Shown piece by piece: positions 14,893-40,857 of a stretch of 64,000 bases of DNA. The translations under genes and the position numbers were made by a program. Numbering within the stretch: position 1 is the first letter of the stretch; each line of letters starts with the position of its first letter. Below the pieces are notes generated by a model. It was not told the DNA's origin. It saw nothing but the letters and a program-made list of their open reading frames with translations, and did no database searches. The stretch covers positions 992,001-1,056,000 of the forward strand of contig NZ_CP041235.1 of NCBI RefSeq assembly GCF_014905115.1, read 5' to 3'. Source of the DNA: Sulfurimonas sediminis (GTDB lineage: Bacteria; Campylobacterota; Campylobacteria; Campylobacterales; Sulfurimonadaceae).

Positions 14893-14909
14893 AATATGAA
14901 CTCCTTGTG

Positions 14910-14938: not shown

Positions 14939-14939
14939 G

Positions 14940-16278: not shown

Positions 16279-16279
16279 C

Positions 16280-16633: not shown

Positions 16634-16658
16634 AATAAAACCTTTTTGAGTATTTTTA

Positions 16659-16680
16659 TAATTATAGTTACTTATAATTA
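16659..16680. promoter_or_regulatory. A+T-rich inverted repeat upstream of the NifU-like gene
   Basis: TAATTATA (16659-16666) and TATAATTA (16673-16680) are perfect inverted arms around six bases, 26 bases upstream of the ATG at 16633. The shape recalls A+T-rich Fur-type operators, and an iron-dependent control of an Fe-S scaffold would make sense, but the base composition makes this weak evidence. Confidence 0.3.
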
Positions 16681-16733
16681 AGATTATCTTAGTTTATATG
16701 ATTATATTTCTGTAAATAATCTCAAATTCAGCA

Positions 16734-16824
16734 AAGACGCACAGCCCGCACTGAAGTACGGGTTCCAAAACAGTTATATCATTACCACCGGAACCCGTAC
16801 TTCAGTGCGGGCTGTGCGTCTTTA
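16734..16824. repeat. palindromic element, type A (34-bp perfect inverted repeat)
   Basis: Two perfectly complementary 34-bp arms (16734-16767 and 16791-16824) flank a 23-base loop in the 303-base gap between the divergent NifU-like and DUF255 genes. Each arm contains the core GGAACCCGTACTTCAGTGC followed by GGGCTGTGCGTC. Each core is itself an imperfect hairpin (CCCG..ACT / AGT..CGGG). A single arm with 2-3 changes recurs at 55242-55275. The rest of the gap holds A+T-rich promoter sequence and no gene. Confidence 0.85.
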
Positions 16825-16936
16825 AAAACTCAGTTTACAGAAAAAAATTTAGTTTTCTCACAAGTCACGCTTTAGCATCTGAAAATCCGGATTTCTAAAA
16901 AAGTATTTTATTTCTAACATTATTGTACAATAATAT

Positions 16937-22415: not shown

Positions 22416-23557
22416 TAAATTTAGCACAAAAAGAGATAGCCCATACTTTTGGAAAGTTTATCGTAACAGCCATAGGAGTAGGTATGCTTCTGGGTATAGT
22501 GTTTGTTATGATGGGTGTTTATCGGGGAATGATTATCGATGCCCAGGTATTACTGGATGATGTGGGTGTAGATTTGTGGGTTGTACAGGAAAATACACTT
22601 GGTCCCTTTGCAGAAGCCTCACGGGTACATGAAGATTTGAAAGATACCCTGAAAGTGATTGAAGGTGTCGATAAATCCGAAGGCATTACATTTCAAAACC
22701 TGCAATTGCCGTCAAAAAACGGAGCTGTCCGTGTCTTTGCAGTGGGATTTGATCCTTTTGGGGATATCAATCCCATTAATCCAAAACGCTTAATCAGCGG
22801 ACGGGGGCTTCATAGAAATCATTATGAAATGGTCGTCACTGACAAAACAGGATTTACACTGGGTGATACAATCCACTTGGGGCGTGATTTTTATCATGTG
22901 GTCGGTGTAACACATGGAACCGTCTCCTCAGGCGGAGATCCTTTGGTGTATATCAGTCTCAAAGATGCACAGGAGTTACAGTTTTTATACTCCAATGCCC
23001 GTATACGCAATGACAGAGAAAGAGGCATATCGGGAGTGAACTCTCATATGGTCAATGCTGTGATAGCTACAAAAAAAGATGGCTACGATATTGATGTTAT
23101 TGCAGATAATATAAGAGAGTGGAAACACAAGGCGGTTTTTACGGCTGAAGAAGAGAAGACTATTCTGACAAAAAATCTTATTAAAATGGCATCCAAACAG
23201 ATTGGTATGTTTACGGTCATTTTGGTAATTGTCTCGACTATCATTATTGCGTTGATTATTTATACAATGACACTGGAGAAGATGAAAGAAATTGCCATTA
23301 TGAAGCTTATCGGTATTCCAAACAGTATGATAATCAAGATGATAGTTCAAGAGACGCTTATTATGGGAGTGTTGGCATTCATCTCAGGAAATATCTTTGC
23401 ACATCTTATTTATACGAAGTTTCCAAAACGGGTTGTATTGGAAACACCGGATGCTTTAGGACTTTTTATTGTTGTGGTTATTGCATCCATACTGGCTTCT
23501 TTGATAGGGGTTAAAAAAGTAATCTCAGCAGACCCTGCAGAGGCAATAGGCGGTTGA
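22412..23557 (+). CDS. FtsX-type ABC transporter permease (MacB/DevC-like)
   Basis: A 381-residue permease with one N-terminal helix (FIVTAIGVGMLLGIVFVMMGV), a large periplasmic MacB_PCD-like domain (about 45-260), and three C-terminal helices typical of FtsX (ILVIVSTIIIALIIYTMTLEKMKEIAIMKLIG). The sequence EKMKEIAIMKLIG is the conserved cytoplasmic coupling segment of this family. With separate ATPase (23559) and adaptor (21273) genes, this resembles DevBCA or LolCDE-type mechanotransmission exporters rather than import. The substrate is unknown. Confidence 0.88.
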   Translation: MINLAQKEIAHTFGKFIVTAIGVGMLLGIVFVMMGVYRGMIIDAQVLLDDVGVDLWVVQENTLGPFAEASRVHEDLKDTLKVIEGVDKSEGITFQNLQLPSKNGAVRVFAVGFDPFGDINPINPKRLISGRGLHRNHYEMVVTDKTGFTLGDTIHLGRDFYHVVGVTHGTVSSGGDPLVYISLKDAQELQFLYSNARIRNDRERGISGVNSHMVNAVIATKKDGYDIDVIADNIREWKHKAVFTAEEEKTILTKNLIKMASKQIGMFTVILVIVSTIIIALIIYTMTLEKMKEIAIMKLIGIPNSMIIKMIVQETLIMGVLAFISGNIFAHLIYTKFPKRVVLETPDALGLFIVVVIASILASLIGVKKVISADPAEAIGG

Positions 23558-23558
23558 T

Positions 23559-24272
23559 ATGAGTAAACAGGCAATTAAAGTAGAAAATCTGGTCAAAAAT
23601 TTCGGCAAGGGTGATTCTCTTGTTGAGGTCTTAAACGGGGCATCTTTTCGTGTAGACAAAGGCGAGCTTGTAGCGCTTGTTGCCCCCAGCGGTGCAGGAA
23701 AAACAACACTGCTTATGATGATAGGCTGTGTGGAAGAGCCGACAAGTGGAAAAATATGGCTTGGTGATGAAAAAGTCTATGATAACAAATGGCTGACAAA
23801 AGAGACAAGAAAAATAAGACGGGAAAAAATTGGCTTTATTTTTCAGGCACACTATCTGATTCCTTTTTTGAATATTTTGGAAAATATCACTTTGGTGCCA
23901 CAGGCAAACGGTGTCTCGGACGAGGAGAGCAAAAAAATAGCGATGGAGCTTTTGGAGTATTTTGACATTGCTGACAAGGCGTACTCCATGCCTTCACAAC
24001 TCTCAGGCGGACAAAACCAAAGAGCTGCCATAGCACGGGCTTTGGCAAACAAGCCTCAAATCATACTTGCAGATGAGCCAACAGCTGCACTCGATTCCAA
24101 GCGTTCCGTTGATGTTGTAAAGATGCTCAAAAAGATAGCCATAGAGCAGAATGTGGCGGTAATCATGGTGACACATGATGAAGCAATGTTGCCACTTTGC
24201 GACAGAATCTTAAAGATAGAAGACAAAAAGGTTGTTTCTTCCAAAATATCTGGAGAAAATATGATACTTTGA
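23559..24272 (+). CDS. ABC transporter ATP-binding protein (LolD/MacB/DevA type)
   Basis: A 237-residue ATPase with Walker A APSGAGKTT (about 41-49), Q-loop FIFQAHYLIPFLNILEN, signature LSGGQNQRAAIARAL, Walker B IILADEPTAALD and switch His in MVTHDE. The LTKETRKIRREKIGFIFQ segment is typical of the FtsX-partner ATPases. It begins one base after the permease stop and completes the TolC-adaptor-permease-ATPase operon. Confidence 0.92.
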   Translation: MSKQAIKVENLVKNFGKGDSLVEVLNGASFRVDKGELVALVAPSGAGKTTLLMMIGCVEEPTSGKIWLGDEKVYDNKWLTKETRKIRREKIGFIFQAHYLIPFLNILENITLVPQANGVSDEESKKIAMELLEYFDIADKAYSMPSQLSGGQNQRAAIARALANKPQIILADEPTAALDSKRSVDVVKMLKKIAIEQNVAVIMVTHDEAMLPLCDRILKIEDKKVVSSKISGENMIL

Positions 24273-25889: not shown

Positions 25890-25960
25890 GGAACCGGTAC
25901 TTTAGTGCCGGCTGAGAGTGGCAAGACTATTACAACAGCCGGCACTGAAGTACCGGTTCC
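25890..25960. repeat. palindromic element, type B copy 2 (71 bp)
   Basis: Arms at 25890-25914 and 25936-25960 flank a 21-base loop. Both the loop and the single arm mismatch are the mirror image of copy 1 at 19891-19961, so the two elements are inverted relative to each other and bracket 5.9 kb carrying the tolC-adaptor-ABC-GGDEF genes. Confidence 0.85.
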
Positions 25961-26031: not shown

Positions 26032-26058
26032 TATAATAATTGAACGACAGTCGGTCAA
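26032..26058 (+). promoter_or_regulatory. TetR gene promoter with overlapping palindromic operator
   Basis: TATAAT lies at 26032-26037. Immediately after it, TTGAACGACAGTCGGTCAA (26040-26058) is a 9-bp inverted repeat with one mismatch around a central A, covering the expected transcription start. This size and shape fit an operator for the TetR-family protein encoded 19 bases downstream, so autorepression of the regulator and the whole efflux operon is likely. Confidence 0.7.
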
Positions 26059-26076
26059 AAATACTTTTGGAGGGTT

Positions 26077-26670
26077 ATGTTGGCAATTATAGTTGACAAA
26101 GAACAGAAAAAAAAAGATATTGCTCTTGGAACAAAAGCGTTAATTCTTAAAGACGGAATTAACAATATAACAATTTCTCAGATTGCAAAAGCTGCCAACA
26201 TAGGCAAAGGCACGGTGTATGAATATTTCAAGAACAAAGATGAGATAGTCTTTGAACTGGTTGGAATTTTGATGCAGGAGCATAACGAGAGAAAAGAGAA
26301 ACAACTCTCACTGCATGTAAGCACACGAGAAAAAGTAAAAAGCTTTTTTGGCTTTTTTTATGCCGATGCAGATAGAGAACTGCGTGAAATATACAAGCAG
26401 TTTACTGCGATTGCTCTGAGCAGTACAAATGAAGAGATGGTTACTTTTCAAACAGAGTGTTATACTTTGTATGAAAAATGGATGGAAAATATCATAGAAG
26501 AGGGTATAGAAAAAAACGAGTTAAAGAGTGAAGCAAAAGAGTTGGTTATGGGTATTTTTGCTTTTGCTCAGGGTACTTTTATTATGAGTGTTACCACAAG
26601 TGCCATAGAAGATTTAAAACAAAAAATAGATACGCAAATAGATATTTTATTTGATTTAATGGAGAAATGA
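26077..26670 (+). CDS. TetR/AcrR family transcriptional regulator
   Basis: A 197-residue regulator. The N-terminal helix-turn-helix (DGINNITISQIAKAANIGKGTVYEYFKNKDEIVFEL, about residues 26-62) is the TetR pattern, and the C-terminal ligand-binding domain is helical. GGAGGG precedes the ATG by 5 bases. The gene is first in a set of eight genes for efflux, and the palindrome at 26040-26058 is its likely operator. The inducer is unknown; a pump substrate is the usual case. Confidence 0.92.
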   Translation: MLAIIVDKEQKKKDIALGTKALILKDGINNITISQIAKAANIGKGTVYEYFKNKDEIVFELVGILMQEHNERKEKQLSLHVSTREKVKSFFGFFYADADRELREIYKQFTAIALSSTNEEMVTFQTECYTLYEKWMENIIEEGIEKNELKSEAKELVMGIFAFAQGTFIMSVTTSAIEDLKQKIDTQIDILFDLMEK

Positions 26671-26672
26671 TT

Positions 26673-27911
26673 ATGAAAAAACTACTTTTACTCACTGTTG
26701 TCCCCGCTCTTTTATTTGGAGATGACCTGAAATCACTTTTAGAATTTGCAAAAGAGAATAACAATCTTGTCAATGCCTCCAAAATAGCAGTACATGCAAA
26801 AGCAAAAGAGGTACAAAGTGCCACAAGCAATTATTTCCCTACGGTAGATGTGAGTGCTTTTTATAAAAGAGATGACAAACCGAGTCCTTTTTTCCCGGGA
26901 ACAACATACGGAGCAAGGGCGAAAATCGGGTTTGACATCTATGACGGCGGGAAAAAATCATATACAAAAAAACAAAAAGAGAATGAAAAAAAATCTGCTT
27001 CTTTTAGTTATAAAGATACAAAAAAATCTATTCTTCTTGGGATAACAGAGGATTATTATAATCTCAAAAGTCTGCAGGCCTCTTTGGGTGCGACGATAGA
27101 AGCTTCCAAAGCAGTCAAAGCACAGCTTGAAAGAGTGCGACATTTTTATGAAGCTGATCTTGCTACAAGTGATGATGTGGACAGACTCCAATCTGCATAT
27201 GACAGCACTTTGTATGCAATAGAATCTACAAAATTTCAAATAACAGCGCTGCATAAAGCACTTGAACTCAAAGTCGGAAAAAAAATAAACACTTTAAAAA
27301 ATTCACAGTTTGACAAAAGAGCAGCACAAAATGAAGAGCTTCTCGACAGTATCGAGTCGCTCAGGTACAAAAAAGCAGCATTGCAAAATTTAGGCGAAAC
27401 GGTTGAGAGCTATTATTATCCTACTATCCGTATAGAAGATACCTATTCGTTTTATGGGTATCAGGATAAGCCGACTTTTGGGGGAATTCCCATTGCCTAC
27501 CTTGACAAACAAAATGAGCTGATGGCTACAGTCGGCTTGAGACTGTTCGATTTTGGGACACTCAAAGAGCAAAAAGAGGCTCTGAAACTGCAGGCTGATG
27601 CACTGAATCAGCAGATTATTTACAAATCAAAAGAACAACAGATGCAGCAAGAGTTGGCACAAGAGCGAATTCATACAGCCAAACTCAATATTAAAAGTTC
27701 GAAAAGTGCACTCAAAGCGGCAAAAAGTGCTTTAAAAACTATCACAGAAAAGTACAATGCAGGCATAGTGGACAATGTCGTCTATCTTGATGCGCTTTCG
27801 GCAAAAACAGAGGCAAAAGCAAGGTATGAAAAAGCACGCAATGATCTTGAAATAGCCTATGGCATTTATTACTATTATAACAATAAAAATTTAGAGGAGT
27901 TTGTTAAATGA
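26673..27911 (+). CDS. TolC-family outer membrane protein
   Basis: A 412-residue protein from the ATG at 26673, chosen over 26667 because GGAG lies 8 bases before it. It has a signal peptide (LLLLTVVPALLFGDDL) and two OEP repeats; segments VDVSAFYKRDD and LMATVGLRLFDFGTLKEQK mark beta-strand and helix transitions. It is the only outer membrane duct of the large operon and may therefore serve both the RND pump and the ABC exporter that follow. It overlaps the RND adaptor gene by 4 bases. Confidence 0.88.
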   Translation: MKKLLLLTVVPALLFGDDLKSLLEFAKENNNLVNASKIAVHAKAKEVQSATSNYFPTVDVSAFYKRDDKPSPFFPGTTYGARAKIGFDIYDGGKKSYTKKQKENEKKSASFSYKDTKKSILLGITEDYYNLKSLQASLGATIEASKAVKAQLERVRHFYEADLATSDDVDRLQSAYDSTLYAIESTKFQITALHKALELKVGKKINTLKNSQFDKRAAQNEELLDSIESLRYKKAALQNLGETVESYYYPTIRIEDTYSFYGYQDKPTFGGIPIAYLDKQNELMATVGLRLFDFGTLKEQKEALKLQADALNQQIIYKSKEQQMQQELAQERIHTAKLNIKSSKSALKAAKSALKTITEKYNAGIVDNVVYLDALSAKTEAKARYEKARNDLEIAYGIYYYYNNKNLEEFVK

Positions 27912-28615
27912 AAAAAATATTTATAGCTTTAATCACCCTGGTGAGTCTCTCTTATGCGCAAAAAGTTTATGCAACATTTGATGTGGCAGCACAAAAGAGT
28001 GCCAATCTGGCTTTTACTGCGAGCGGAATTGTAAAAAAAGTCAATGTCGATATCGGTTCGGTAGTGAGCCAAAACCAAATACTGGCAAAACTTGGAAACA
28101 AAGATATAAAAGCAATGCTTGAAAAAACACAAATAGTTTTTAAGTTTGCTTCAAGAGAACTCAAAAGACAGGAAAAAATCAAAAAGCTTATAGATGCAAG
28201 CAAATATGACAAAATCCTCAGCAATTATGAAAATGCAAAAGCATCGGTTGCCTATCAGCAGGCTTTGTATGAAAAGACAATTTTAAAAGCACCCTTTGCA
28301 GGTGTTATTTATGACAAAAGCATAGAAGTCGGCGATGCAGTCAGCGGTCTGATGCTTAAAACTGTTTTTAAAATACAAAGTATTCATGCAAGAAAGCTGA
28401 TATTGGAATTTGATCAAAAATATCACGGTATTGTAAAAGTCGGACAAACCTTTGAGTATAAGATAGACGGAGACAGCAAGACCTACACAGGTGTTATCTC
28501 CAAAGTCTATCCGTATGCAAATTTTGACAACAGAAAGATAAAAGCGGAAGTAGAGGCAAAAGATTTTACAGTCGGGCTTTTTGGTGACGGTATGATACTG
28601 GTTGACGGAAAATAA
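27908..28615 (+). CDS. periplasmic adaptor of RND efflux system
   Basis: A 235-residue adaptor with a signal peptide (IFIALITLVSLSYAQKV). Lipoyl halves are seen at AFTASGIVKKVNVDIGSVVSQNQILAKLG and LKAPFAGVIYDKSIEVGDAVSG, with a short coiled coil between them, and a beta-barrel towards the end. It is short, without the membrane-proximal domain. It begins at the tolC stop (overlap 4) and is followed by the RND pump after 2 bases. Confidence 0.9.
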   Translation: MKKIFIALITLVSLSYAQKVYATFDVAAQKSANLAFTASGIVKKVNVDIGSVVSQNQILAKLGNKDIKAMLEKTQIVFKFASRELKRQEKIKKLIDASKYDKILSNYENAKASVAYQQALYEKTILKAPFAGVIYDKSIEVGDAVSGLMLKTVFKIQSIHARKLILEFDQKYHGIVKVGQTFEYKIDGDSKTYTGVISKVYPYANFDNRKIKAEVEAKDFTVGLFGDGMILVDGK

Positions 28616-28617
28616 CG

Positions 28618-31600
28618 ATGTACAAATTAGCGATTAACAGACCAATTGCCACACTGATGTATGTCATAACATTGGTGATTTTTGGCTATATGAGTTTTAA
28701 AAGCATGCCCTCGGCACTCTATCCGAATGTTGATTTTCCTATAGTGACAGTCAAAACAATCTATCCGGGTGTTGAAGCCGATACGATAGAATCACAGGTC
28801 ACAGAAAAAATAGAAGAGGCCATTTCACGCATAGGCGGAGTGGACAGCATCACATCCACAAGCAGTGACGGCGCATCTGTTGTTATGGTGAAATTCTTCT
28901 TAGAACGCAATATTGATGAAGCGACTAATGATGTGCGTGACAAAGTCTCAGCTGTTATCTTGCCAAAAGATGCACAAACGCCACTTGTGAGTAAACTCGA
29001 TATCGGCGGGGCTCCTGTTATCAATGTTTTTTTAACAGCAAAAAAAGACACCTTGCAAAACCTGATGGTATTTGCCGATGAGAAAGTAAAACCGGCTATT
29101 CAAAAGATCAACGGTGTCGGTGCTATAAATATCATCGGTTACAAAGACAGAGAGATAAAAATCTTTCCCGATATTTACAAGCTTAATAAATTTGGCATTA
29201 CCATCAAAGAGTTAAATGATATTGTAGCAGAAGAAAATGTCAAAATCGGCGGTGGAAAACTGATCACAAAAACCAAAGAGATTATCTTAAAAACAAAAGC
29301 GGATGCCCTGAGCGTGAAGCAACTCCAAGACATTATAGTAAAAGATGATTTAAGACTCAAAGATTTGGCAACAGTTGTTGATTCTTTGAGTGATGCAAAA
29401 AGCTACTCATCATACAATGGTATACCGGGTGTTATGCTTGAAGTGCAAAAAATTTCAGGAACAAATACGATAGATATAGTAAAACGCGTCAAAGAAGCCG
29501 TGCCGCAGCTAAAAAAAATGGCTGGCGAAAAATATGGGGTAGAACTGCTCCAGGATACTACGCCTTTTATCATTCACTCACTTGAAGATGTAAAATTTGA
29601 CCTTATTTACGGTGCCATTTTGGCAGTTATTATCATCTTCGGTTTTTTGAGAAACTTTACTATTACTCTGGTTTCGGCACTCTCTATTCCTATCTCTATT
29701 CTTGGTACGATTGCTTTAATGAATCTGATGGGGTATAACCTGAATAAAATGACACTCATCGGTTTGACGCTTGCTATCGGAATTATCATAGATGATGCCA
29801 TCGTTGTGTTGGAGAATATCTACAAAAAGATGGAAGCAGGTATGGGCAAGTTTGAAGCCGCACTGTATGGAGTCAAAGAGATGGCATTCGCTATTCTTGC
29901 AATTTCGGCAATGTTGCTTGCTGTTTTTCTTCCGGTTGCACATATGAGCGGAATTGTCGGAAAATTCTTTGAAAGTTTTGCAATGACGGTAGGGTTTGCC
30001 GTTATTATTTCCTATACGGTTGCGATGAGTTTTATGCCGAGTTTGAGCGCAAGAGTATTGCATAAAGGAGAGAGCAGGTTTTATAATATTACAGAACCGA
30101 TTTTTCAACGCTTAGACAAAATATATGCTGCAACACTGAGTTTTGTGCTCCGTTTTAAATTTTTGACACTTCTTTTTGTTCTTGGGGTGTTTGTTGCCTC
30201 GCTTTCTCTTTTTCCAAAAATCGGTATGGATTTTCTGCCAAAAGAAGATAAAGCAGAGTTTGAAGTAAAACTCAGAGCCGATGCGGGCATCAGTTTGGAT
30301 GAAATGATACGAGAGTCCAAAGTGATTGAAAATTTAATCAGAGCTGACAAAAATGTTGTTTTTACAACCTTGAGTGTGGGCTATAACAGTGTGCATGAGA
30401 AAAACAAGGCACTTATTTATGTCAAACTTACGCCTAAGGGCAGCAGAAAAAAGAATCAAGAAGAGATTATTCAGGAGTTCCGTAAAAAGCTCAAACCTTT
30501 TTCCAAAGAGATGTTTATTACAGCAGCGGCAATTCCAAACATCAAAGGTGCCGGGGTAAGTGTACCGTATCAAATTGTACTGACATCGGATTCTTTTGCC
30601 AAGCTTGATGTGGCGAGAAAAAATCTGATGGAGTATCTGGCGAAGAAAAAAGGCTTTGTTGATATTGACTCTAATCTTGATGAGGGCAAACCACAGATTG
30701 ACATCAATATAGTCCGTGAAAATGCCAACAGAATGGGAATCAGTGCAGCACAGATAGCAAAGGCTGTCTCCATCGCCTTTTCAAGTGACTTGGAAATTTC
30801 CTATTTTGAACAAAACGGAAAACAGTACAAAATTACCCTGCGACTGCCTGACAAAGATCGTGTAAGCATAGATGATCTCAAAAAAATCCAACTCAGAGCT
30901 AAAAACGGTGAGTTGGTTTTTCTTGACGGTCTTGTCACATTTCACAATGCAAGGTCTTTGGCTTCGATATATCACTACAACCGACAAAGACAGGTGACAA
31001 TTTATTCTGATTTGTTTGGGCTTGATCTGGGCGGGGCTGTCAAGTATACCCGTGCAAAAATAGATGAGTTGCTGCCTGAGGGAGTGCAGTATAAATTTAC
31101 AGGCTTTGCCGAAGAGATGGAAAAAACTGCCAAGGCTTTTGGCGTAGCTCTTGGTTTGTCTGTCATTTTAATGTTTATCATCCTGGCGATTTTGTATGAG
31201 TCGCTTATTCAGCCTGTTATCATTATGATGGCATTGCCACTGAGTATTATCGGGGTTATGCTGGCTTTGTATCTGACACATTTGCATTTCAGTCTCTTTG
31301 TGATGATTGGATTTATGCTGCTTATGGGTATGGTCGGTAAAAATGCCGTACTGCTTGTTGACTTTGCCAATGAAGCAGTAGCGCGGGGAAAAGATGCCAA
31401 TGCCGCACTGCTTGAAGCGGGAGAAAAAAGACTGCGCCCGATTTTGATGACAACAATTGCGATGATATTTGCGATGCTTCCATTGGCGCTGAGCAACTCT
31501 TTGGGAAGTGAAACAAAAGCACCGATGGCAATAGCCATCATAGGCGGCCTTTTAAGTTCGATGGTGCTAACATTGCTTGTTGTGCCTGTAATTTATAAAA

Positions 31601-31668
31601 TGATAAACCCGATTGATCAATGGCTCAGAAAATGGTATGAGAAAAAAATACAGAGTGATACTGAATAA
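28618..31668 (+). CDS. RND efflux pump, HAE1 (AcrB-like) family
   Basis: A 1016-residue inner-membrane pump with 12 helices and two large periplasmic loops. The N-terminus AINRPIATLMYVITLVIFGYMSFKSMPSALYPNVDFPIVTV is typical, and the TM4 proton-relay pair is present as D392-D393 in IGIIIDDAIVVLENI. The TM10 region GFMLLMGMVGKNAVLLVDFANEA supplies the partner Lys/Asn-type position. It should export hydrophobic compounds by proton antiport with the adaptor at 27908 and TolC at 26673. Confidence 0.95.
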   Translation: MYKLAINRPIATLMYVITLVIFGYMSFKSMPSALYPNVDFPIVTVKTIYPGVEADTIESQVTEKIEEAISRIGGVDSITSTSSDGASVVMVKFFLERNIDEATNDVRDKVSAVILPKDAQTPLVSKLDIGGAPVINVFLTAKKDTLQNLMVFADEKVKPAIQKINGVGAINIIGYKDREIKIFPDIYKLNKFGITIKELNDIVAEENVKIGGGKLITKTKEIILKTKADALSVKQLQDIIVKDDLRLKDLATVVDSLSDAKSYSSYNGIPGVMLEVQKISGTNTIDIVKRVKEAVPQLKKMAGEKYGVELLQDTTPFIIHSLEDVKFDLIYGAILAVIIIFGFLRNFTITLVSALSIPISILGTIALMNLMGYNLNKMTLIGLTLAIGIIIDDAIVVLENIYKKMEAGMGKFEAALYGVKEMAFAILAISAMLLAVFLPVAHMSGIVGKFFESFAMTVGFAVIISYTVAMSFMPSLSARVLHKGESRFYNITEPIFQRLDKIYAATLSFVLRFKFLTLLFVLGVFVASLSLFPKIGMDFLPKEDKAEFEVKLRADAGISLDEMIRESKVIENLIRADKNVVFTTLSVGYNSVHEKNKALIYVKLTPKGSRKKNQEEIIQEFRKKLKPFSKEMFITAAAIPNIKGAGVSVPYQIVLTSDSFAKLDVARKNLMEYLAKKKGFVDIDSNLDEGKPQIDINIVRENANRMGISAAQIAKAVSIAFSSDLEISYFEQNGKQYKITLRLPDKDRVSIDDLKKIQLRAKNGELVFLDGLVTFHNARSLASIYHYNRQRQVTIYSDLFGLDLGGAVKYTRAKIDELLPEGVQYKFTGFAEEMEKTAKAFGVALGLSVILMFIILAILYESLIQPVIIMMALPLSIIGVMLALYLTHLHFSLFVMIGFMLLMGMVGKNAVLLVDFANEAVARGKDANAALLEAGEKRLRPILMTTIAMIFAMLPLALSNSLGSETKAPMAIAIIGGLLSSMVLTLLVVPVIYKMINPIDQWLRKWYEKKIQSDTE

Positions 31669-31678
31669 GGAGTAGATT

Positions 31679-32836
31679 ATGCAGGTTCTAAAAAAATATT
31701 GGTTGGCTGTTGTTATAGCTGTTTTGTTGGTGAGTGCCGGTGCTATGATTTACAAAAAACTGCATCCAAAAACACTTCCTGCAAATTTGGTTGAAGGGAC
31801 AGGTCGTATGGACGGTGATCTGGTAAACCTCAATGCAAAATATGCAGGAAGACTGGATAAAATATTTGTTGATGACGGTGTGCCTGTGCATAAAGGAATG
31901 GTTGTGGGTGTCTTAAAAAGCAAAGAATTTGCAGCACAAAAAGCTGGGCTTGATGCACAGATTCAGGCAAAAAAACAGCAACTTGCAGCACAAAAAATCG
32001 AAGAAAAAATTGCACAGACAACCATTCCGCTTTTAGAAAAAAAAGCAAAAGCACAGCTTGTCTCAGCCCAAGCCTCGCAACAGGCATTTGAAAAAAATAT
32101 TCTGATACAAAAAGATGTCGTTGCCCAGGCAAAAAGAGATTTCAAACGCTCTCAACGATTGTATAAAAACAAAAGTATTGACAAACACAAACTGGAACTT
32201 GCACAACTCAAAAGAGATACAGAAAATAAAAAGCTCTCTGCACTGCAGCAACAGCTAAAAAAAGTAAAATCAGGAGTAACTTTGGCTCGTATTGCACTTT
32301 TGGATGCGCAGGCATCACAGAAAAAACTTTTTGCCATTGCCGCAAATATTCAGGCCCTGCAAGATGGCATAGAAGCTGCAAAAGCATCCAAAGCACAAAT
32401 AGAAGCGATGATACAGGAGATGACACTTGTCTCACCTGTTGATGGAATTACGGTAGAAAAGATTGCCAACGAGGGCGAGGTGATAGCTCCCGGTATGCCG
32501 GTAGCCACACTTTTGGATCCCCACTCCTTGTATCTGAAAATATTTGTTGACACACTGCAAAACGGAAAAATAAAACTGGGTGACAAAGCGGTAATATTTC
32601 TTGATGCCTATCCAAATCATCCGATACAGGCAAAAGTAGTGCGAATTGCCCAAAAAGCGGAATTTACGCCCAAAGAGGTCAGTGTGCGTTCAGACAGAAT
32701 TCAAAGAGTGTTTGCCGTGCATCTCAAACCACTGGCAATTGACCCCTTGTTAAAACTCGGTATACCGGCTGTGGGAGTTGTGTCACTTGATGGCAAAGGC
32801 CTGCCAACTTCACTCAATGATATTCCGGTACTCTAA
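31679..32836 (+). CDS. HlyD-family adaptor (YbhG-like) for the ABC-2 exporter
   Basis: A 385-residue protein with an N-terminal anchor (YWLAVVIAVLLVSAGAMIYK), first lipoyl half (YAGRLDKIFVDDGVPVHKGMVVG), a very long Gln/Lys/Ala-rich coiled coil (about 85-255), second lipoyl half (LVSPVDGITVEKIANEGEVIAPG) and a beta-barrel. AAGGAG lies 8 bases before the ATG. It follows the RND pump by 10 bases and precedes the double ATPase by 6, the order seen in ybhGFSR-type exporters. Confidence 0.9.
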   Translation: MQVLKKYWLAVVIAVLLVSAGAMIYKKLHPKTLPANLVEGTGRMDGDLVNLNAKYAGRLDKIFVDDGVPVHKGMVVGVLKSKEFAAQKAGLDAQIQAKKQQLAAQKIEEKIAQTTIPLLEKKAKAQLVSAQASQQAFEKNILIQKDVVAQAKRDFKRSQRLYKNKSIDKHKLELAQLKRDTENKKLSALQQQLKKVKSGVTLARIALLDAQASQKKLFAIAANIQALQDGIEAAKASKAQIEAMIQEMTLVSPVDGITVEKIANEGEVIAPGMPVATLLDPHSLYLKIFVDTLQNGKIKLGDKAVIFLDAYPNHPIQAKVVRIAQKAEFTPKEVSVRSDRIQRVFAVHLKPLAIDPLLKLGIPAVGVVSLDGKGLPTSLNDIPVL

Positions 32837-32842
32837 AACAAG

Positions 32843-34465
32843 ATGTCTCTTCTTGAAGTAAAAAACATCCGGGTCTCTTACAAAAAAAGAGTCGGCATAC
32901 ACAATGCCTCATTAGAAGCAAACAGTGGAGAGATTATCGGTTTTATAGGAGCAGACGGTGCAGGAAAAAGTTCTCTTATACATGCTGTAGCCGGTGTTAT
33001 CCGTTTTGAGGGTGAGATTGTTTATGATGGTATCGCGTACCACTCACCCAAAGAGGCAGAAAAAGTAAAACCTTTTATCGGACTGATGCCACAGGGAATA
33101 GGGCTTGTCCTTTATGATACTTTGAGTGTAGGGGAGCATTTGGAGTTTTTTGCCGATATTCGCAATGTTACAAAAGATGAAAAATTTCTTGCATATAGAG
33201 AAAAACTGCTTCATATGGCAGGACTGAGCGATTTTGTCGAGAGAGAAGCCGGCAAACTCAGTGGCGGGATGATGCAAAAACTCTCACTTATCTGCACACT
33301 TCTGCATCGTCCGAAACTTCTTATTTTGGATGAACCGACAACCGGAGTGGATCCTTTGAGCCGTTTGGAACTGTGGGAGATTCTCGACAGTATACGCAAA
33401 GAAGAAGGAACAGTCATTCTAGTAAGCACTGCTTATATGCAAGAAGCCTCCAAAATGGACAAAATTTTTCTTTTTGACGAAGGAGAAATCATTGCCCGCG
33501 GCACAAATGAAGAGCTTATTGACTCCATTCGTCCCTATGTTTATGAAGAGGTTACATGTAAAGAAGCGTGCCTGAGTTTTAACAAGCGTACCTATTCGCT
33601 GCAGCCTTTACATGTAAAGCAGGCAGAACCTACTTTGGAGGGACTCTTTTTTGTGAATGCTCTGCAAAAGAAAAAGCTCCTGCCTAAGGTTGTCATAACA
33701 AAACGAGACAAAGAAATCGCAATACCGCCTGTTGTAATGCACGCATATGGTATCACAAAAAGATTTGGCAGTTTTACGGCAAATGACCATGTGGACATAG
33801 AACTCAAACGGGGTGAAATTTTGGGTCTGCTGGGTGCAAACGGCGCAGGAAAAACGACATTTATTAAAATGCTTTTGGGTCTGTACCCGATAGACGAGGG
33901 GACACTTACCCTGCTTGAAAAAGTCATCCGCAGCGGAGATGACCGTCAAACACTTAAGTCCAAAATCGGCTATGTAAGTCAGCATTTTGCACTCTACAAT
34001 GACATGACTGTACGGGAAAACCTGATTTATTTTGCCAATATGCATCAGATTCCTCTCAAAACTGCCTTAAAAAGAATTGAGCAGTATGCCAATGAACTCG
34101 GCTTTAAAGAGTATATGGATGAATTGCCAACTGCGCTTCCTCTGGGCGTAAATCAGCGTTTTTCCATAGCTGCGGCACTTTTACACGAACCGCTTGTGCT
34201 GTTTTTGGATGAGCCTACAAGCGGTGTGGATACCATTGCAAGAGCGCAGTTTTGGGAAATTTTGAAAAAGCTCAAAGAGCAGTGGCATATATCTATTTTG
34301 ATAACCACACACTATATGAGTGAAGCGGAGTACTGTGACCGAGTGGTACTGCTCAAACAGGGAAAAAAGATTGCAGACGATACCATAGAAAATTTTTATA
34401 AATCACATCCCGATGCAAAGAGTTTTGAAGATATTTTCTTGACATATTATAAGGATAGAAAATGA
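32843..34465 (+). CDS. ABC transporter with two fused ATPase domains (YbhF-like)
   Basis: A 540-residue protein with two nucleotide-binding domains. Domain 1 has Walker A GADGAGKSS (about 34-42), signature LSGGMMQKLSLICTLL and Walker B LLILDEPTTGVD. Domain 2 has Walker A GANGAGKTT (about 331-339), Walker B VLFLDEPTSGVD and switch His ITTHYMSEAE, but its signature is altered to LPLGVNQRFSIAAALL. Domain 1 also lacks the usual switch His (LVSTAYMQEAS). The degenerate positions are split between the domains, which implies one functional composite ATP site. It energises the two ABC-2 permeases that follow. Two TTACATGTAA palindromes lie at 33552 and 33608. Confidence 0.92.
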   Translation: MSLLEVKNIRVSYKKRVGIHNASLEANSGEIIGFIGADGAGKSSLIHAVAGVIRFEGEIVYDGIAYHSPKEAEKVKPFIGLMPQGIGLVLYDTLSVGEHLEFFADIRNVTKDEKFLAYREKLLHMAGLSDFVEREAGKLSGGMMQKLSLICTLLHRPKLLILDEPTTGVDPLSRLELWEILDSIRKEEGTVILVSTAYMQEASKMDKIFLFDEGEIIARGTNEELIDSIRPYVYEEVTCKEACLSFNKRTYSLQPLHVKQAEPTLEGLFFVNALQKKKLLPKVVITKRDKEIAIPPVVMHAYGITKRFGSFTANDHVDIELKRGEILGLLGANGAGKTTFIKMLLGLYPIDEGTLTLLEKVIRSGDDRQTLKSKIGYVSQHFALYNDMTVRENLIYFANMHQIPLKTALKRIEQYANELGFKEYMDELPTALPLGVNQRFSIAAALLHEPLVLFLDEPTSGVDTIARAQFWEILKKLKEQWHISILITTHYMSEAEYCDRVVLLKQGKKIADDTIENFYKSHPDAKSFEDIFLTYYKDRK

Positions 34466-35348
34466 AACTAATAACCATCAAAGCCTATATATTGAAAGAA
34501 TTTATGGAGCTTTACAGGACGCGTCTGATTGTAATGGTATATTTGTTGCCGAGTATGATTGTATTGCTCTTTGGGTATGGAATTCGTATGGATGTTACAC
34601 ATGCAAGAATTTTGATTCTAGACAATGATCAGAGCAAATTTTCACAAGTGCTTACTTCCAAGTTTGAACATAGCAAATACTTTAATGCAAAGGTGTTACA
34701 TGTAAGTGAAAAAGAGGCACTTCGCTCTATAAAACAGGCTAAAACCGATGCAGTTTTAATCATTCCAAGTTCATTTGAAAAACGACTTTTACATGCTCAA
34801 AAAAGTGAAATCGGTATTTTTGTAGATGCTTCTTTTCCGACAAGGGCTACGACTATTGAGGGATATATCAAGGGGACTGTGCTTGATGGGGTAAGTGAGG
34901 TGGCACAAAGAAGCGGTTTGTCTGCAAAAGGGCTTATTGTGTTAAATCAGCGTACGCTTTTCAATCAGGCAATGCGGGATGAAGATGCCATAGTTCCAGG
35001 ACTCATAGGGCTTGTGCTTTTGGTGGCTCCTGCAATTTTGGCAGCACTTCTTATAGTAAAAGAGAAAGAGAGAGGGACCATTTTTAATTTTTATGCTTCG
35101 CCTTTGAGTAAGGGAGAGTTCTTGCTTGCAAAGCTTTTTCCTGCTTTTTTACTGCATTCTGTGAATATTTTTATACTCTTTTTGCTTGCAGTTTATCTGT
35201 TTGATGTTCCTTTTCGGGGAAGTTTTATGCTCTACTGGCTCAGCAGTGAACTTTATATTCTTATCAGCCTCTCTATCGGTATGCTTATTTCTAAGTACCT
35301 AATCAAAAATAAAACCAAAAAAAGAACAGAAATTGCTTATGCCTAAAT

Positions 35349-35651
35349 ATGAGACATAGTAGCTATATAAAATTAGACGAAAAAGAAGAGTTAGAGCTTT
35401 ATAAATTCATAGAGGAATCCAATAAAGCCAGAGAGAAGAAAAGAGCGATGGGAGTACTTCTAAATTCACAAAAGATAAGTGTTTTAGAAATATCAAAAAA
35501 GTTGAGTTCATGTACGGATGCAGTTTATAATTGGTTAATTCGGTATAAGAGAGGAGGAGTAGCCAGCCTTAAGGATATACCACAACAAGGGCGACCGAAA
35601 ATACTAAAAGTTGAAGATGAAGATAAGATAAAAGAAGTTTTTAAAAAATAA
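35349..35651 (+). CDS. IS630 transposase, N-terminal helix-turn-helix part
   Basis: A 100-residue frame with the winged helix-turn-helix segment VLEISKKLSSCTDAVYNWLIRYKRGGVASLKDIPQQGRP, typical of the DNA-binding half of IS630 transposases. It ends in TTT AAA AAA TAA at 35640-35651. The catalytic half continues in the +1 frame, directly over this A-rich run. This could be programmed frameshifting or transcriptional slippage, or an inactivating single-base change. Confidence 0.85.
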   Translation: MRHSSYIKLDEKEELELYKFIEESNKAREKKRAMGVLLNSQKISVLEISKKLSSCTDAVYNWLIRYKRGGVASLKDIPQQGRPKILKVEDEDKIKEVFKK

Positions 35652-35679
35652 ACTCAGTATAAGTGCTGCAATCACAAAA

Positions 35680-36390
35680 TTGGGAAAAAAGATTACTAAG
35701 GTTTTTTCTAAATCAACGCTCAGAAGATACCTTAAAGAGATGGGGTTCAGCTATAAGCGATTACGATTTGTTCCTGCAAAGAAACCAGATAATACGCTTT
35801 ATGAAGAGAAAAAGAGGCACTTGCAAAAGTATGATTTACTCGCACAACAAGGCAAAATCAATCATTATTACTTTGATGAAAGTGGTTTTTCTGTTAACTC
35901 AAATATCCCTTATTCCTGGTCACCTGTAAATGCAACAATGGTGATTAAATCTTTCCACGCAAAAAGGTTTAATGTTCTTGGTTTTATCTCCAAACAAGAA
36001 GATCTAAAAGCATACATCAAGGAGTCCTCTGTAACAAGTGATACTGTTATTGAAGTCTTTGATGACTTCTCTCTTCAACTTACGAAGCCTACTGTGGTAA
36101 CATTGGATAATGCATCCTTTCACAAAAGTAAAAAATTCAGAGAGAATATCCCAAAATGGGCAAATAGAGGTCTTACTTTAATCTATCTACCTCCTTACTC
36201 TCCAGAACTCAATATTATTGAAATTCTTTGGAAATTTATCAAATATCACTGGATGGAAATGTCTGCTTATCAAAGCTATACTGCAATGAAAGAATATGTT
36301 GAGCGAATGCTTAATGAATATGGAGATAAGAGAGTCATAGATTTTACACTGTATGAGAAGAAATTTTACCCTTTGGTTATGGTTGATTAA
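35680..36390 (+). CDS. IS630 transposase, catalytic DDE part
   Basis: A 236-residue frame, open upstream to at least 35641 (a TTG at 35680 is the first possible start). The catalytic triad is visible: D66 in YYFDESGF, D143 in TLDNASFHKS and E181 in PPYSPELNIIEILWKFIK, with 37 residues between the last two. It would be fused to the helix-turn-helix part by a +1 shift. The stop lies one base before the right inverted repeat. Confidence 0.88.
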   Translation: MGKKITKVFSKSTLRRYLKEMGFSYKRLRFVPAKKPDNTLYEEKKRHLQKYDLLAQQGKINHYYFDESGFSVNSNIPYSWSPVNATMVIKSFHAKRFNVLGFISKQEDLKAYIKESSVTSDTVIEVFDDFSLQLTKPTVVTLDNASFHKSKKFRENIPKWANRGLTLIYLPPYSPELNIIEILWKFIKYHWMEMSAYQSYTAMKEYVERMLNEYGDKRVIDFTLYEKKFYPLVMVD

Positions 36391-36706
36391 TTGGTTTTAT
36401 TTTTGGATAGGTACTTATCATTACAAGCAGACAAATTGTTGCCGTTGTTTTGACCATTATTATCACCATAATTCCGGGGTTTTTATACTCTGGTATGCTT
36501 ATGCCGATATCTTCCATGAGTGGCGAGTCGTATATTGAAGCGCATATGTTTCCGGTGATGTATTATACGCATATTCTTTATGATACATTTTTGATAGGAC
36601 AGGGTTTGGCGTCTGAAAAAATTATCATGTATCTGTTGATACTTGTCGGGTTTGTTGTGGGGCTTTTTACTATCGGTACCTTATTGCTGAAAAAGGAGAT
36701 GAAATA

Positions 36707-37786
36707 ATGCGGATATTTGCTATGATTGTCTCCAAAGAACTGCTGAGTTTTTTACGCTCTATAGGATTAGTCGCTGTTGTACTTTATTCGTTTACGGCAG
36801 ATGTATATATAGCCGGTTCCGGCATACAGATAAAACCGCGCAATGTTGTTGTCGGGTATGTTGACAAAACAGGCGGAGGAGTAAGCCAAAAGATACTTGC
36901 ACGCTTGCATCAACCGGAGTTTAAACCACCGATTGCCTTCCTTTCGCAAAAAGCACTCTCTAATGCTATTTTTAACAAAGAGGTTATGGTCGGAATACTC
37001 TTTGACTCTGATTTTGAAAAAAACTACAAGAGCGGAAAAAAAGCACAGATCAATCTTTTGCTCGATGCTACTGCCGCATCGCAAAGTCTCACGACATTTA
37101 TGTATCTGCAAAATATTGTATTTGACTTCCAATCTGTAAACTTTCCGATTGAATTAAAGTCACACAAACTTTTTAATCAAAATGCGGACAATCACAGTTT
37201 TATGGCATTGACAGAACTGCTTTCAATTATAACCCTGCTGATAGTCATTTTGACGGCGATTGTTTTTGTCAAAGAAAAAGAGGACGGCACCTGGGATATT
37301 ATGCTGCTTACTCCGGTCAATCCCAAGATTATAATACTGGCAAAAAGTTTTTCGCAGGTGCTCATTGTCATGGCAGGCGTTGTACTCTCTTTGGGATTTG
37401 TGCTTTTTGACCAGTTTGATGTACCGCTCAACGGATCATTTTGGGCATTTATGCTCCTGACATTCTTGTACTCTGTTTCGAGTGCGGGTATAGGACTTTT
37501 TGTAGCGGCAGTCTCTAAAGATGTGATACAGGTGGCTCAGCTTTCTATCATTATTATGATGCCGTTGATTTTTCTCAGTGGTGCCTGGACCCCCGTCTAT
37601 GCTATGCATCCGGTATTTCAAACTCTCTCTTTGTTTTCACCGCTTCGCTATTACATAGAAGCAACGGAGAGTATCTTTTTCAGAGGAACGGCGTTTATAG
37701 ATTTGTGGCCATATTTTAGCGGAGTTCTTCTTCTGGGGACTCTGTTGTATTGGTACGGTTTTAGAAAAATCGGAAAATTGTTTTAA
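36707..37786 (+). CDS. ABC-2 permease (YbhR-like)
   Basis: A 359-residue membrane protein with one N-terminal helix, a periplasmic domain (about 45-170), and five C-terminal helices. Segments VKEKEDGTWDIMLLTPVNPKIIILAKSF and FLSGAWTPVYAMHPVFQTLSLFSPLRYYIEA are standard for ABC-2 exporters. It should pair with the interrupted permease, so the exporter may now be inactive or form a homodimer. It closes the operon. Confidence 0.9.
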   Translation: MRIFAMIVSKELLSFLRSIGLVAVVLYSFTADVYIAGSGIQIKPRNVVVGYVDKTGGGVSQKILARLHQPEFKPPIAFLSQKALSNAIFNKEVMVGILFDSDFEKNYKSGKKAQINLLLDATAASQSLTTFMYLQNIVFDFQSVNFPIELKSHKLFNQNADNHSFMALTELLSIITLLIVILTAIVFVKEKEDGTWDIMLLTPVNPKIIILAKSFSQVLIVMAGVVLSLGFVLFDQFDVPLNGSFWAFMLLTFLYSVSSAGIGLFVAAVSKDVIQVAQLSIIIMMPLIFLSGAWTPVYAMHPVFQTLSLFSPLRYYIEATESIFFRGTAFIDLWPYFSGVLLLGTLLYWYGFRKIGKLF

Positions 37787-37813
37787 ATCAAAGCTCTGTT
37801 TTTATTTTTTTAC

Positions 37814-37819
37814 TATAAT
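37814..37819 (+). promoter_or_regulatory. -10 element of the bacteriohemerythrin gene
   Basis: A perfect TATAAT in an A+T-rich run, 22 bases before the ATG, with GAGGGA as ribosome binding site about 7 bases before the start. No clear -35 is seen, as is usual for Campylobacterota promoters. Confidence 0.55.
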
Positions 37820-37841
37820 AAAGAAAAAAGAGGGATTTTTT

Positions 37842-38267
37842 ATGGCATTGGTATATATTGAGCAAGTTGAAGATATGGATGTGGAGGAGATGCAAAAAAC
37901 TCATGAAAATGAGATTAAAATTTTAAATGCAATCGATAATCTTGCGATCTCTTACGATCGGGGGGAAGCGACACTCGAAGAACTTGAAGCAAAAATCGAG
38001 GAGTATGTGAAGCATGTTCATGAACACTTTGCAAACGAAGAACGTTTGATGCAGGAGTATAATTTTCCTTCTTATGATATGCACAAAACTGCACATGATA
38101 TGTTTTTGGAAGAGCTGAATATGGCTCTTAAAAATTGGAAAAACTATAAAAAGGTTTCAAAAATTACTGATTTTATCCGCAGAGCACCCGAATGGATAGT
38201 CTTACATGTAAACACAGTGGACTACCCGACTGCAAATTATCTTGCAAAAAAGATGAAAGGTTTGTAA
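37842..38267 (+). CDS. bacteriohemerythrin
   Basis: A 141-residue soluble protein with all diiron ligands of the hemerythrin family: H21, H58 or H62 with E66 in HVHEHFANEE, H81 and H85 in HKTAHD, and H122 with D127 in LHVNTVD. It binds O2 reversibly and in bacteria serves oxygen storage, delivery or sensing in microaerobic life. It is monocistronic with its own -10 element. One TTACATGTAA palindrome (38202) codes for the LHV that contains ligand H122. Confidence 0.93.
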   Translation: MALVYIEQVEDMDVEEMQKTHENEIKILNAIDNLAISYDRGEATLEELEAKIEEYVKHVHEHFANEERLMQEYNFPSYDMHKTAHDMFLEELNMALKNWKNYKKVSKITDFIRRAPEWIVLHVNTVDYPTANYLAKKMKGL

Positions 38268-38270
38268 AAC

Positions 38271-38591
38271 CTATTCATCATCTTCGTCGTCTTCAAAATC
38301 ACTCAGATCAAATTCGATTTTTACAGGTTCTTCTACAACTTCTTTGATATCGGTGATGTTTTGGGGCGAAATATTAAGCGCCATTGCTACAAATGTTGCC
38401 AATGCGTTATCTTTTACAATTTCCTGGCATGCTTCAGAAGTATTGTAAATCGTAAGGATTTGATTTTTTGTAAGTACGTCACCCGGGTTTATCCCCAATT
38501 CTGCCGCAATATTGTGCAAGTCCGGACGATTGAGCAAAACACCCTCAACCTTCATACAAAAGCCTGTTCTTAATTTCTTATTTGGATACAT
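38271..38591 (-). CDS. hypothetical protein, acidic C-terminus
   Basis: A 106-residue cytoplasmic protein. The middle has a helical pattern (RPDLHNIAAELGINPGDVLTKNQILTIYN) that could be a helix-turn-helix-like or helical-hairpin fold, and the last 15 residues are nearly all Asp and Glu. I do not recognise the family. It ends 3 bases from the convergent bacteriohemerythrin and shares its upstream region (38592-38710) with the divergent gene at 38711. Confidence 0.65.
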   Translation of the reverse strand: MYPNKKLRTGFCMKVEGVLLNRPDLHNIAAELGINPGDVLTKNQILTIYNTSEACQEIVKDNALATFVAMALNISPQNITDIKEVVEEPVKIEFDLSDFEDDEDDE

Positions 38592-38710
38592 TGTTACTCC
38601 TATTCTTAAAATGTTTCTTTTGGTCGATTATAGCCAAAAAATTCAAGAAAAATATTTTGTTTGAATGGTATAATTTGACTTTAAAATAAAAAAGAGAAAA
38701 AGAGAAAACA

Positions 38711-39172
38711 ATGCACACATACCAAATTGCAGAGTCAGTATTAGATGGCTATAAAAATGAAAAACTGACAGATGAAAGAGTTGATTTTTTAACAGCACAG
38801 GCTCATGAACAGCTTGCTGAAATAGCCAAAAATAAAGCACTTTTTGAAGATTTTTCAGGTCGGGTGAATGCACCAAAAAAGGTAGATAAAATTATTCTCT
38901 GGATACTTTTTATGTCAAATGAAAGCATATGTGACGACTATATAAGTGCGTGCAACAAAAATTACAGAGAGATAATTCCTATAAGTGATTTAGCCGACTT
39001 GTTACTCTATGTCATACATTTGAAGAAAGTGCAAAACATGGAACTCGACGGTTTTGACCACTTGGTAGAATGCGAAGAAGCAGGCATAGAAGAAGTAGAC
39101 CAGTATGCCTTTACAAATGCGCTGCTCTACATTCAAAAACTCAAAGAAAAAGAAGTGGAGATGCAATTCTAA
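38711..39172 (+). CDS. hypothetical protein
   Basis: A 153-residue soluble, acidic, mainly helical protein without recognisable motif. A TATAAT about 40 bases upstream (38670-38675) could serve as its -10. Its stop overlaps the convergent selO stop by 4 bases. Confidence 0.65.
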
Positions 39173-40857
39173 GACGAACAACTCACATGCGAAACTCCTG
39201 CAATATCAAACAGTTCAGCAGGTTTTTGGCTGTAGTATTTTGCTTCTGTTGCAGATGACTGCTCATCATAGGGATGTGTCATCACTTCCTGCAGCTCTTT
39301 TATAAGGGTGTAATCTCCTTTTTGGGCTGCTTTGTATGCTGGCACCAAAAACCACTCTCGCAGAGTGTACTTGGGATTGACCTGTTTCATCTCCTGTGAG
39401 AGCTTTTTGCGGGCCTCCTGCGTAGTGACATTGATGTTTGCTTTCCATTTTTCCAGCCACTCGCTCCAGCTTCTCATCAGTGCTTCATTATATACGGAAT
39501 CACCGTAAAAGCTTTTTGCAAGCGTGGAAATATCTTCAGGAATATTTGAAAGTTCACGAAAAAAGATGGTGTAGTCAACCGAAGTCTTTATCATAAGTTT
39601 TATAAGTTCGTTGAACAATGCGGCATTAAAGACTGACAAGCCAAGTTTAGAAGCCCACATCTGTATCATTTTAGCCTGCATAACTTTGGAAAAATCATTC
39701 ATGATTACATGTAACTGCTGCATCTGCTGCTCATGTGATTTGAGCAAAGGCTCTAAGGATTTACAAAACATCCCAAAATTTTGCTCGGCAGCCTGGGGTT
39801 GGTTGAGAAATGAAAAATGGACTCCGCCTCCTGTCCAAGGCTGGTATTTCGGATCGAACATGTCTATAAACCCAAACGGACCGTAATCAAGTGTAAAACC
39901 ACCTGCGGCACAGTTGTCACCATTGAAATTTCCCTGACAGTATCCGACACGAATCCAGTTTGCTACAAGTGAAGTAAGTCGGGAGCGAAATTCACGGGCA
40001 AGCAGCACTGTTTTTTCTTCTAAAGGTAAATCTTTATCTATGACATCACTGTATTCTCTTTCAATCAGGTGCAAGATAAGTATCTCAAGTTCCTCCATCG
40101 CCTTTGGATGCTCATTTTTACGTGCCCGTCGAGCAAAAAGTTCAAGTTGCCCTACACGAAGAAAAGAGGGGGCAACACGCGTTGTAATGGCAACATTTTC
40201 TTCTATCATCACCTCTGGATCCCTTGAATACGAACCGTTTCTAAACCAAGGCCGTCTGACTGTTTCTGTCTTTGAAGTGTATAAACTCAAAGAACGGGAT
40301 GTGGGAACACCAAGGGCATACATGTGTTCTTGTGCCAAAAATTCTCTAATACTTGAACGCAGTACCGCACGACCGTCAGCTCCACGGCAGTAAGGAGTTC
40401 TCCCTCCGCCTTTGAGCTGCATTTCCCATCGTTTACCCTTTAACACTGCCTCAAGAATAGAGATAGCCCGTCCGTCACCATACCCGTTTCCTGTTTTAAA
40501 AGGACACTGCTCATAATACTCTGTACCGTAGATGGAGAGTGCATACCCTGTTGCCCAGCCGGTGCGACGCAAAGGCTCTTTGAGATGGGAAGTGTCACCC
40601 GAAAACATGCGCATAAAGTCCTCAGATGCAGCCAAGTCATCACTCAGTCCAAGCTCCTTAAAAAAGATTTTGCTGTGCGCAATGTAAACAGGATTTTCTA
40701 TCGGAGTAGGTTTTACCGGAACATAATGCCCGCTGAATACCTGTCTTGGCACGTGATCTACACCGTCTGCTGTAGCATTGGGATCAGGGTTAAGTGTGTC
40801 CATTAGAGAATACTCAGCAAACTGTGCCAGATCATCGAGTGTCTGTATATCTTGCAT
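39169..40857 (-). CDS. selO: SelO/YdiU-family protein adenylyltransferase
   Basis: A 562-residue pseudokinase-fold enzyme. Clear family blocks are [36 protein letters not shown] (nucleotide-binding Gly-rich region and conserved Arg) and [29 protein letters not shown] (catalytic loop with Asn-Asp and DYG metal-binding motif). SelO transfers AMP to protein Ser/Thr/Tyr residues and is linked to redox stress. The C-terminus VSCSS has Cys at the third position from the end, the place held by selenocysteine in animal SelO. A TTACATGTAA lies at 39705. Confidence 0.93.

Follow-up and report, generated by a model that had tools for sequence, protein, structure and literature searches.

The 64,000-nucleotide window analysed here (Sulfurimonas sediminis, contig NZ_CP041235.1, positions 992,001 to 1,056,000) carries between positions 26077 and 37786 a set of eight genes, all on the + strand, that encode in order a TetR-family regulator, a TolC-like outer membrane efflux protein (OEP), a periplasmic adaptor and its RND pump, a HlyD-type adaptor, an ATPase with two nucleotide-binding domains, and two ABC-2 permeases (Table 1). 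Families were assigned by Pfam and NCBIfam profile searches, which together with the positions of the open reading frames (ORFs) bore out the gene order, strand and families given by a first-pass annotation of this DNA. Its further statement that the genes mostly overlap or are separated by 10 bases or fewer holds for the junctions from TetR through permease 1 (−4, −4, +2, +10, +6 and −4 bases) but not between the two permease ORFs, which lie 1.36 kb apart. No terminator-like site was listed on the + strand within 30201–39500, and no promoter-like site on that strand within 31262–35148.

Table 1. Features of the efflux operon; positions are those of the window.
Feature	Position	Strand	Basis
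TATAAT −10-like hexamer directly 5′ of the operator	26034..26039	+	sequence; same or close form before the operator in many relatives
Putative TetR operator palindrome, TTGAACGACAGTCGGTCAA	26040..26058	.	recurs before TetR in relatives
TetR-family regulator, 197 amino acids	26077..26670	+	PF00440, 44 bits
TolC-like outer membrane efflux protein, 414 amino acids	26667..27911	+	PF02321, 110 bits
Short RND periplasmic adaptor, 235 amino acids	27908..28615	+	PF16576; TIGR01730 below cut-off; structure model; motif
RND pump, HAE1 type, 1016 amino acids	28618..31668	+	PF00873, 937 bits
HlyD/YbhG-type adaptor, 385 amino acids	31679..32836	+	PF16576, PF13437; structure model
ATPase with two nucleotide-binding domains, YbhF/RbbA type, 540 amino acids	32843..34465	+	PF00005, 190 bits, two stretches
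ABC-2 permease 1, 5′ part, codons 1–277	34462..35293	+	PF12698; ORF continues into the insertion sequence to 35346
IS630-family element, 1122 bp	35294..36415	+	transposase in two frames, 25-bp inverted ends, TA duplicated
ABC-2 permease 1, 3′ remnant	36416..36708	+	
ABC-2 permease 2, intact, 359 amino acids	36707..37786	+	PF12698, PF01061

The RND pump contains a full-length ACR_tran domain (positions 1–1020) and its nearest solved chains are MdtB, MexB, AcrB and CmeB. It carries DD at residues 392–393 and GKN at 907–909, which we take to be the counterparts of the paired aspartates of transmembrane helix 4 and the lysine of transmembrane helix 10 in the proton relay of AcrB. The dual ATPase has Walker A motifs at 36 and 331, so that both ABC domains lie on one polypeptide; it scored 501 bits against the RbbA model NF033858, under the curated cut-off of 1050, and lacks a fused permease. 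Its best solved matches are phospholipid-transporting ABCA proteins. The adaptor adjoining it has the domains (PF16576/PF13437) and the long hairpin of the HlyD/YbhG type, as in YbhGFSR-type exporters.

The first-pass annotation counted two ABC-2 permeases and overlooked an insertion: permease 1 is interrupted after codon 277 by an IS630-family insertion sequence (IS). The inverted ends of this element match at 23 of their 25 bp, TA stands at both flanks, and the transposase, with a DDE_3 domain, is read from 35349–35651 and 35680–36390. DDE_3 transposase, inverted ends and TA duplication are the marks of IS630-family elements, from which this copy differs in having its transposase in two frames. 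The last 17 residues of the permease 1 ORF (34462–35346) are read from the element, the remaining ~97 residues of the permease lie 3′ of it, and the intact protein in relatives is 373–374 amino acids long; the original junction with permease 2 was a 1-base overlap. Sister genome G256 (locus L166) has the empty site, a whole permease 1 and an intact operon, with an ATPase 97% identical to that of the window, and the DNA alignment of the two passes the insertion point uninterrupted with a 2-base overlap, TA. Two complete ABC-2 permeases, expected of a YbhGFSR-type exporter, are thus present in G256, G125, G016 and others and not in the window. Since permease 1 is split, the ABC arm of the window genome is probably non-functional and unable to export, contrary to what had been proposed, and the idea of two working permeases was given up. 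The RND pump should still be working in this strain.

The break is recent. The genome holds three copies of the element including this one, identical over their full length and each between TA dinucleotides, and all genes of the operon show ratios of nonsynonymous to synonymous substitution (dN/dS, by Nei-Gojobori) of about 0.05–0.10 between the window and G256. These ratios are 0.091 for TetR, 0.105 for TolC, 0.088 for the RND adaptor and 0.047 for the RND pump, and 0.081 for HlyD, 0.079 for the ATPase, 0.076 for permease 1 (flanks joined) and 0.048 for permease 2. The low values in both arms indicate that the ABC arm was until recently under selection like the RND arm, and led us to reject an old, decayed ABC arm. 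Elsewhere in the same genome, C1:598975-599253 and 2025877-2026146 match only the ends of the element, as short stretches in opposite orientation, and are possibly IS-derived miniature inverted-repeat transposable elements.

The palindrome before TetR, TTGAACGACAGTCGGTCAA, which had been proposed as the operator, is the only such site in the 2.32-Mb genome when as many as two mismatches are allowed, while the reversed pattern, used as a control, gave two matches per strand. A site with 0–4 mismatches to the operator consensus was found at TetR in 32 of the 32 loci with a TetR gene (15 of 15 in a first list and 17 of 17 in a second, which included two further loci without TetR), and none of 200 shuffles of each of these regions matched the consensus as well as the real site; eight of the 32 loci had contributed to the consensus. 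The site precedes TetR whether ABC genes are present or absent, and also in L049, which has no RND pump. A second operator 5′ of HlyD was considered and rejected, no other site at 0–1 mismatch being found in the 16 loci scanned. Upstream of the TetR promoter, a ~136-bp block, for which L166 has 14 bp, contains a hairpin resembling repetitive extragenic palindromic elements (25890–25960; 25-nucleotide arms, 21-nucleotide loop), which the genome repeats several dozen times (77 matches over both strands, in part overlapping).

The combined order recurs in relatives. Of 248 genomes of the order Campylobacterales searched with HlyD, 103 matched at E ≤ 1e-15, and the limit of E < 1e-57 left 71 places in 70 genomes; regions were taken for 60 of the 70 places other than the window, the other 10 (E < 1e-57) being left out. 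Nine of the resulting 61 places are RND-linked, namely the window, G125, G016, G044 contig 20, G205, G140, G129, G042 and G119. A scan of named genomes (58 loci, all mapped save the weak L163–L165) added the RND-linked loci L108 and L109 of Sulfurimonas, L111, L114, L115 and L118 of Sulfurovum, and L124 and L160 from unplaced Campylobacterales or Epsilonproteobacteria. The contigs of L108 and L118 begin inside the operon, and the RND gene of L111 is cut by a contig end. The combined order was found in G125, G016, G256, G205, G140, G042, G119, L108, L114, L115 and L118, so that its absence from relatives, named in the first-pass annotation as grounds for abandoning the single operon, was not observed.

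After removal of 24 duplicates and of proteins under 480 amino acids, the set comprised 92 distinct ATPases, of which 17 are RND-linked, 54 unlinked and 21 unjudgeable for want of flanking sequence (RND threshold 350 bits, and a minimum of 3 kb of sequence before HlyD). Linked loci therefore make up 17 of the 71 scorable distinct ABC loci, spread over three families, and on the ATPase tree RND linkage changed at least six times. Within the genus the ATPase is present in 14 of 135 genomes, with an RND link in six (the window, G125, G016, G256, G311 and G334). Eleven of the 248 genomes contain both an ABC relative and a close RND relative, within 6 kb of each other in nine and ~12 kb apart in two, a proximity that goes beyond chance. 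Across 12 combined loci, pairwise distances of RND correlate with those of HlyD (r 0.70, Mantel p 0.0003) and of the ATPase (r 0.72, p 0.0001), which fits joint travel of the two halves, although shared species history would give the same sign.

A TetR-TolC-adaptor-RND set is frequent without ABC genes (L179–L200; close RND relatives in 248 genomes), and other cassettes may occupy the place behind or beside the RND gene: an MFS transporter and a patatin in L180, an SMR transporter in L109 and L050, DUF2164 with MFS and the ABC set in L052, L053 and L114, and MacAB followed by the ABC set in L201 (MacA and MacB being labels given to neighbours of L054 rather than library matches). In L124 (approximately 4028–18000), RND, SMR, MFS and ABC pumps share one operon with a single TetR and a single TolC. 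The ABC genes of L160 stand between the RND adaptor and the RND pump; L178 (G076, same genus) has a HlyD fragment at that place and is apparently a decayed form of the same nested order. Elsewhere the ABC set lies behind EmrA-EmrB-TolC, or next to a divergently oriented EmrAB-TolC that is accompanied by TetR and patatin. From these arrangements, and since the operator precedes TetR with or without ABC genes, TetR-TolC-adaptor-RND is taken to be the stable core onto which ABC, MFS, SMR or MacAB cassettes were added. A 385-amino acid gene between HlyD and the ATPase in L052 and L053 was considered as a second TolC and rejected, as it encodes an MFS_1 protein.

A patatin-like lipase lies between TetR and HlyD-MFS-ATPase-permeases in L066, L064, L067 and similar loci, with EmrAB-TolC divergent, and patatin is found also in L052, L053, L180, L187, L196 and the TetRb loci; its recurrence hints that the stress or the substrate is connected with membrane lipids. 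Together with the ABCA matches of the ATPase and the match of TetR to the FadR model (57.5 bits, under the cut-off of 200), these sequence features hint that the pumps may handle a lipid or fatty acid.

Whether the two pumps share one duct was approached through the OEP genes of those 64 of 92 ABC loci for which 5 kb or more of upstream sequence was available. RND-linked loci (n = 14) have one OEP gene in 12 cases and two in two cases (L056 and L173, where by position the second was taken to belong to another operon), and in none of the 14 does an OEP gene touch HlyD. EmrAB-linked loci have exactly one OEP in 25 of 25. Of the 25 ABC loci with neither RND nor EmrAB, 16 have an OEP gene that abuts HlyD, one has it at another place and eight have none. 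The difference in abutment (16/25 versus 0/14; Fisher p 8.6e-5, relatedness not corrected for) supports a shared TolC without proving it; the duct is likely shared by the RND and ABC pumps. The earlier suggestion of shared use is backed by the finding that almost all combined loci have just one OEP, and weakened by the OEP genes elsewhere in the genome and by the ABC loci lacking one.

In the structure models each adaptor has a hairpin of the docking type, and the two hairpins differ greatly in length. The RND adaptor has helices 65–94 and 97–122 (~30 residues each, mean pLDDT model confidence 80.3) with the tip RQEKIKKLIDAS at 87–98, and HlyD has helices 82–163 and 169–247 (~82 residues, 74.7) with the tip RSQRLYKNKSID at 157–168; both models were built from shallow alignments. 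Both transporters could in this way reach the same duct, the long hairpin suiting one that lacks a tall periplasmic part and the short hairpin one that has it. The RLS docking motif was taken as R, L and S at 0, +4 and +11, the spacing of MexA R119, L123 and S130, and deviations in the HlyD family are known (PMC4446572). The RND adaptor tip reads R-I-S and the HlyD tip R-L-D; the latter motif was dropped as proof of TolC docking, being too variable.

We consider it fairly probable that the locus is an inducible two-pump efflux operon, controlled by TetR and with a shared TolC, in which an ABC cassette was captured behind the core and in which the ABC arm has recently been knocked out in this genome. 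Several observations weigh against this: a promoter scan (9 of 12 matches) listed no standard promoter at the operator; the HlyD tip ends in D instead of S, strict RLS occurring in seven of 92 distinct HlyD proteins; only nine of 26 close RND relatives are ABC-linked, most having no ABC genes; and the loci are related, so that the counts are not independent. As for the duct, the window genome has eight OEP ORFs, so that it need not be shared, in eight of the 25 partnerless ABC loci no OEP gene lies within 9 kb, and L049 consists of TetR-HlyD-ATPase-permeases without TolC. The eight OEP ORFs and the partnerless loci without an OEP would suit co-regulation without a common duct, with the ABC exporter answering to the same inducer and using another genomic TolC. 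E. coli YbhGFSR probably depends in this manner on a TolC encoded elsewhere, the ybiH-ybhGFSR operon having no tolC gene (PMC7190983). Given that an OEP touches HlyD in so many lone ABC loci and in none that carry RND and its TolC, we regard a separate duct as unlikely, if still worth serious attention.

A mobile ABC cassette might also have landed by chance behind a strong regulated operon and been carried along without any functional tie. The patchy ATPase and the repeated changes of linkage would be in keeping with this; repeated joining in two gene orders (that of L160 and the main one; in L173 the ABC set is distant) and purifying selection on all ABC genes make it improbable. Nor do we give much credence to an ABC arm that still works here, through a homodimer of permease 2 or assembly of the permease 1 fragments, with the IS being harmless. 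Permease 2 and the ATPase are intact, and the piece of permease 1 left 3′ of the element is open over 85 residues and shows three hydrophobic peaks; but truncated permease 1 keeps only four of the seven hydrophobic peaks of the whole protein, both permeases are whole in most relatives with enough sequence, and the ATPase is a fused asymmetric pair, which together make this very doubtful.

For the two-pump operon, we infer the following course from what is known of the families concerned. TetR would repress its own promoter at 26034–26058, and binding of an inducer would release one transcript that covers TolC as the duct, both the RND pump and its short adaptor, and an ABC exporter of the YbhGFSR type together with the adaptor that bears the long hairpin. 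Driven by protons, the RND pump would draw substrate from the periplasm and outer leaflet, and the ABC pair, driven by ATP, from the cytoplasm and inner leaflet, each adaptor docking its own transporter onto the same TolC for export in relay or in parallel. The ABC genes would have been captured as a cassette behind the TetR-TolC-adaptor-RND core, and in the window genome the IS630 element in permease 1 would recently have disabled the ABC arm and left the RND pump working. More tentatively, such loci may be multi-energy efflux hubs of Campylobacterota, in which a core RND pump and exchangeable ABC, MFS, SMR or MacAB cassettes, at times accompanied by a patatin lipase, depend on a single TetR operator and a single TolC, with as many as four pump superfamilies in one operon (L124); an ABC set would drop its own TolC on joining, and the pumps would relay the same compound, the inner ones feeding the periplasm and RND clearing it.

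MexAB-OprM and CmeABC group a regulator, an adaptor, an HAE1 RND pump and an OEP in an operon. The window has the same set of components, with an RND pump related to MexB, CmeB and MdtB, and differs in having the OEP first, an adaptor of only 235 amino acids and an ABC exporter behind. E. coli YbhGFSR exports drugs such as tetracyclines. The ABC half resembles E. coli ybiH(cecR)-ybhGFSR in having a TetR regulator, a HlyD-type adaptor, a two-domain ATPase and two ABC-2 permeases in the same order, and L049 in G044 has exactly this form; the E. coli operon has neither TolC nor an RND pump (PMC7190983). Vibrio cholerae VarACDEF likewise places an outer membrane protein, an adaptor and an ABC pump within one regulon (PMC5595328), but has no RND pump, a LysR-type regulator and ABC proteins with large periplasmic domains. 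In E. coli, TolC is the single duct for AcrAB, MacAB and EmrAB, both proton- and ATP-driven (PMC8277102 and PMC7190983), with tolC located away from the pump operons in the genome (PMC8277102). A literature search by title and abstract, with most subscription papers outside its coverage, found no description of an operon joining RND and a YbhFSR-type ABC exporter. The combined operon is new as a variant; the ABC half with its regulator (ybiH-ybhGFSR) and the sharing of an OEP are already known. Where tolC and the pump genes are dispersed, it is difficult to find out by experiment whether proton- and ATP-driven pumps on one duct work together or compete. Here a single operator and a single duct bring such pumps together in many natural combinations, and the window strain, with its broken ABC arm, and G256, with the whole operon, form a natural pair for testing the contribution of the second pump.

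The window is an efflux-rich stretch, with two further efflux loci that include OEP genes at 20089–24272 and 57002–62402 (OEP matches at genome positions 1012089 and 1049002, RND at 1051355). On the − strand at 492–3796, an adaptor and an OEP are followed by an RND transporter that is divided between two ORFs of half length (529 and 571 amino acids), which overlap by 1 base. Its N-terminal half gave 37 matches in 29 genomes (41 relatives), the frame being about half-length in 35 of the 37 and full length only in G012 and G015 (1110 and 1171 amino acids), which makes this a conserved split RND pump rather than a frameshift.

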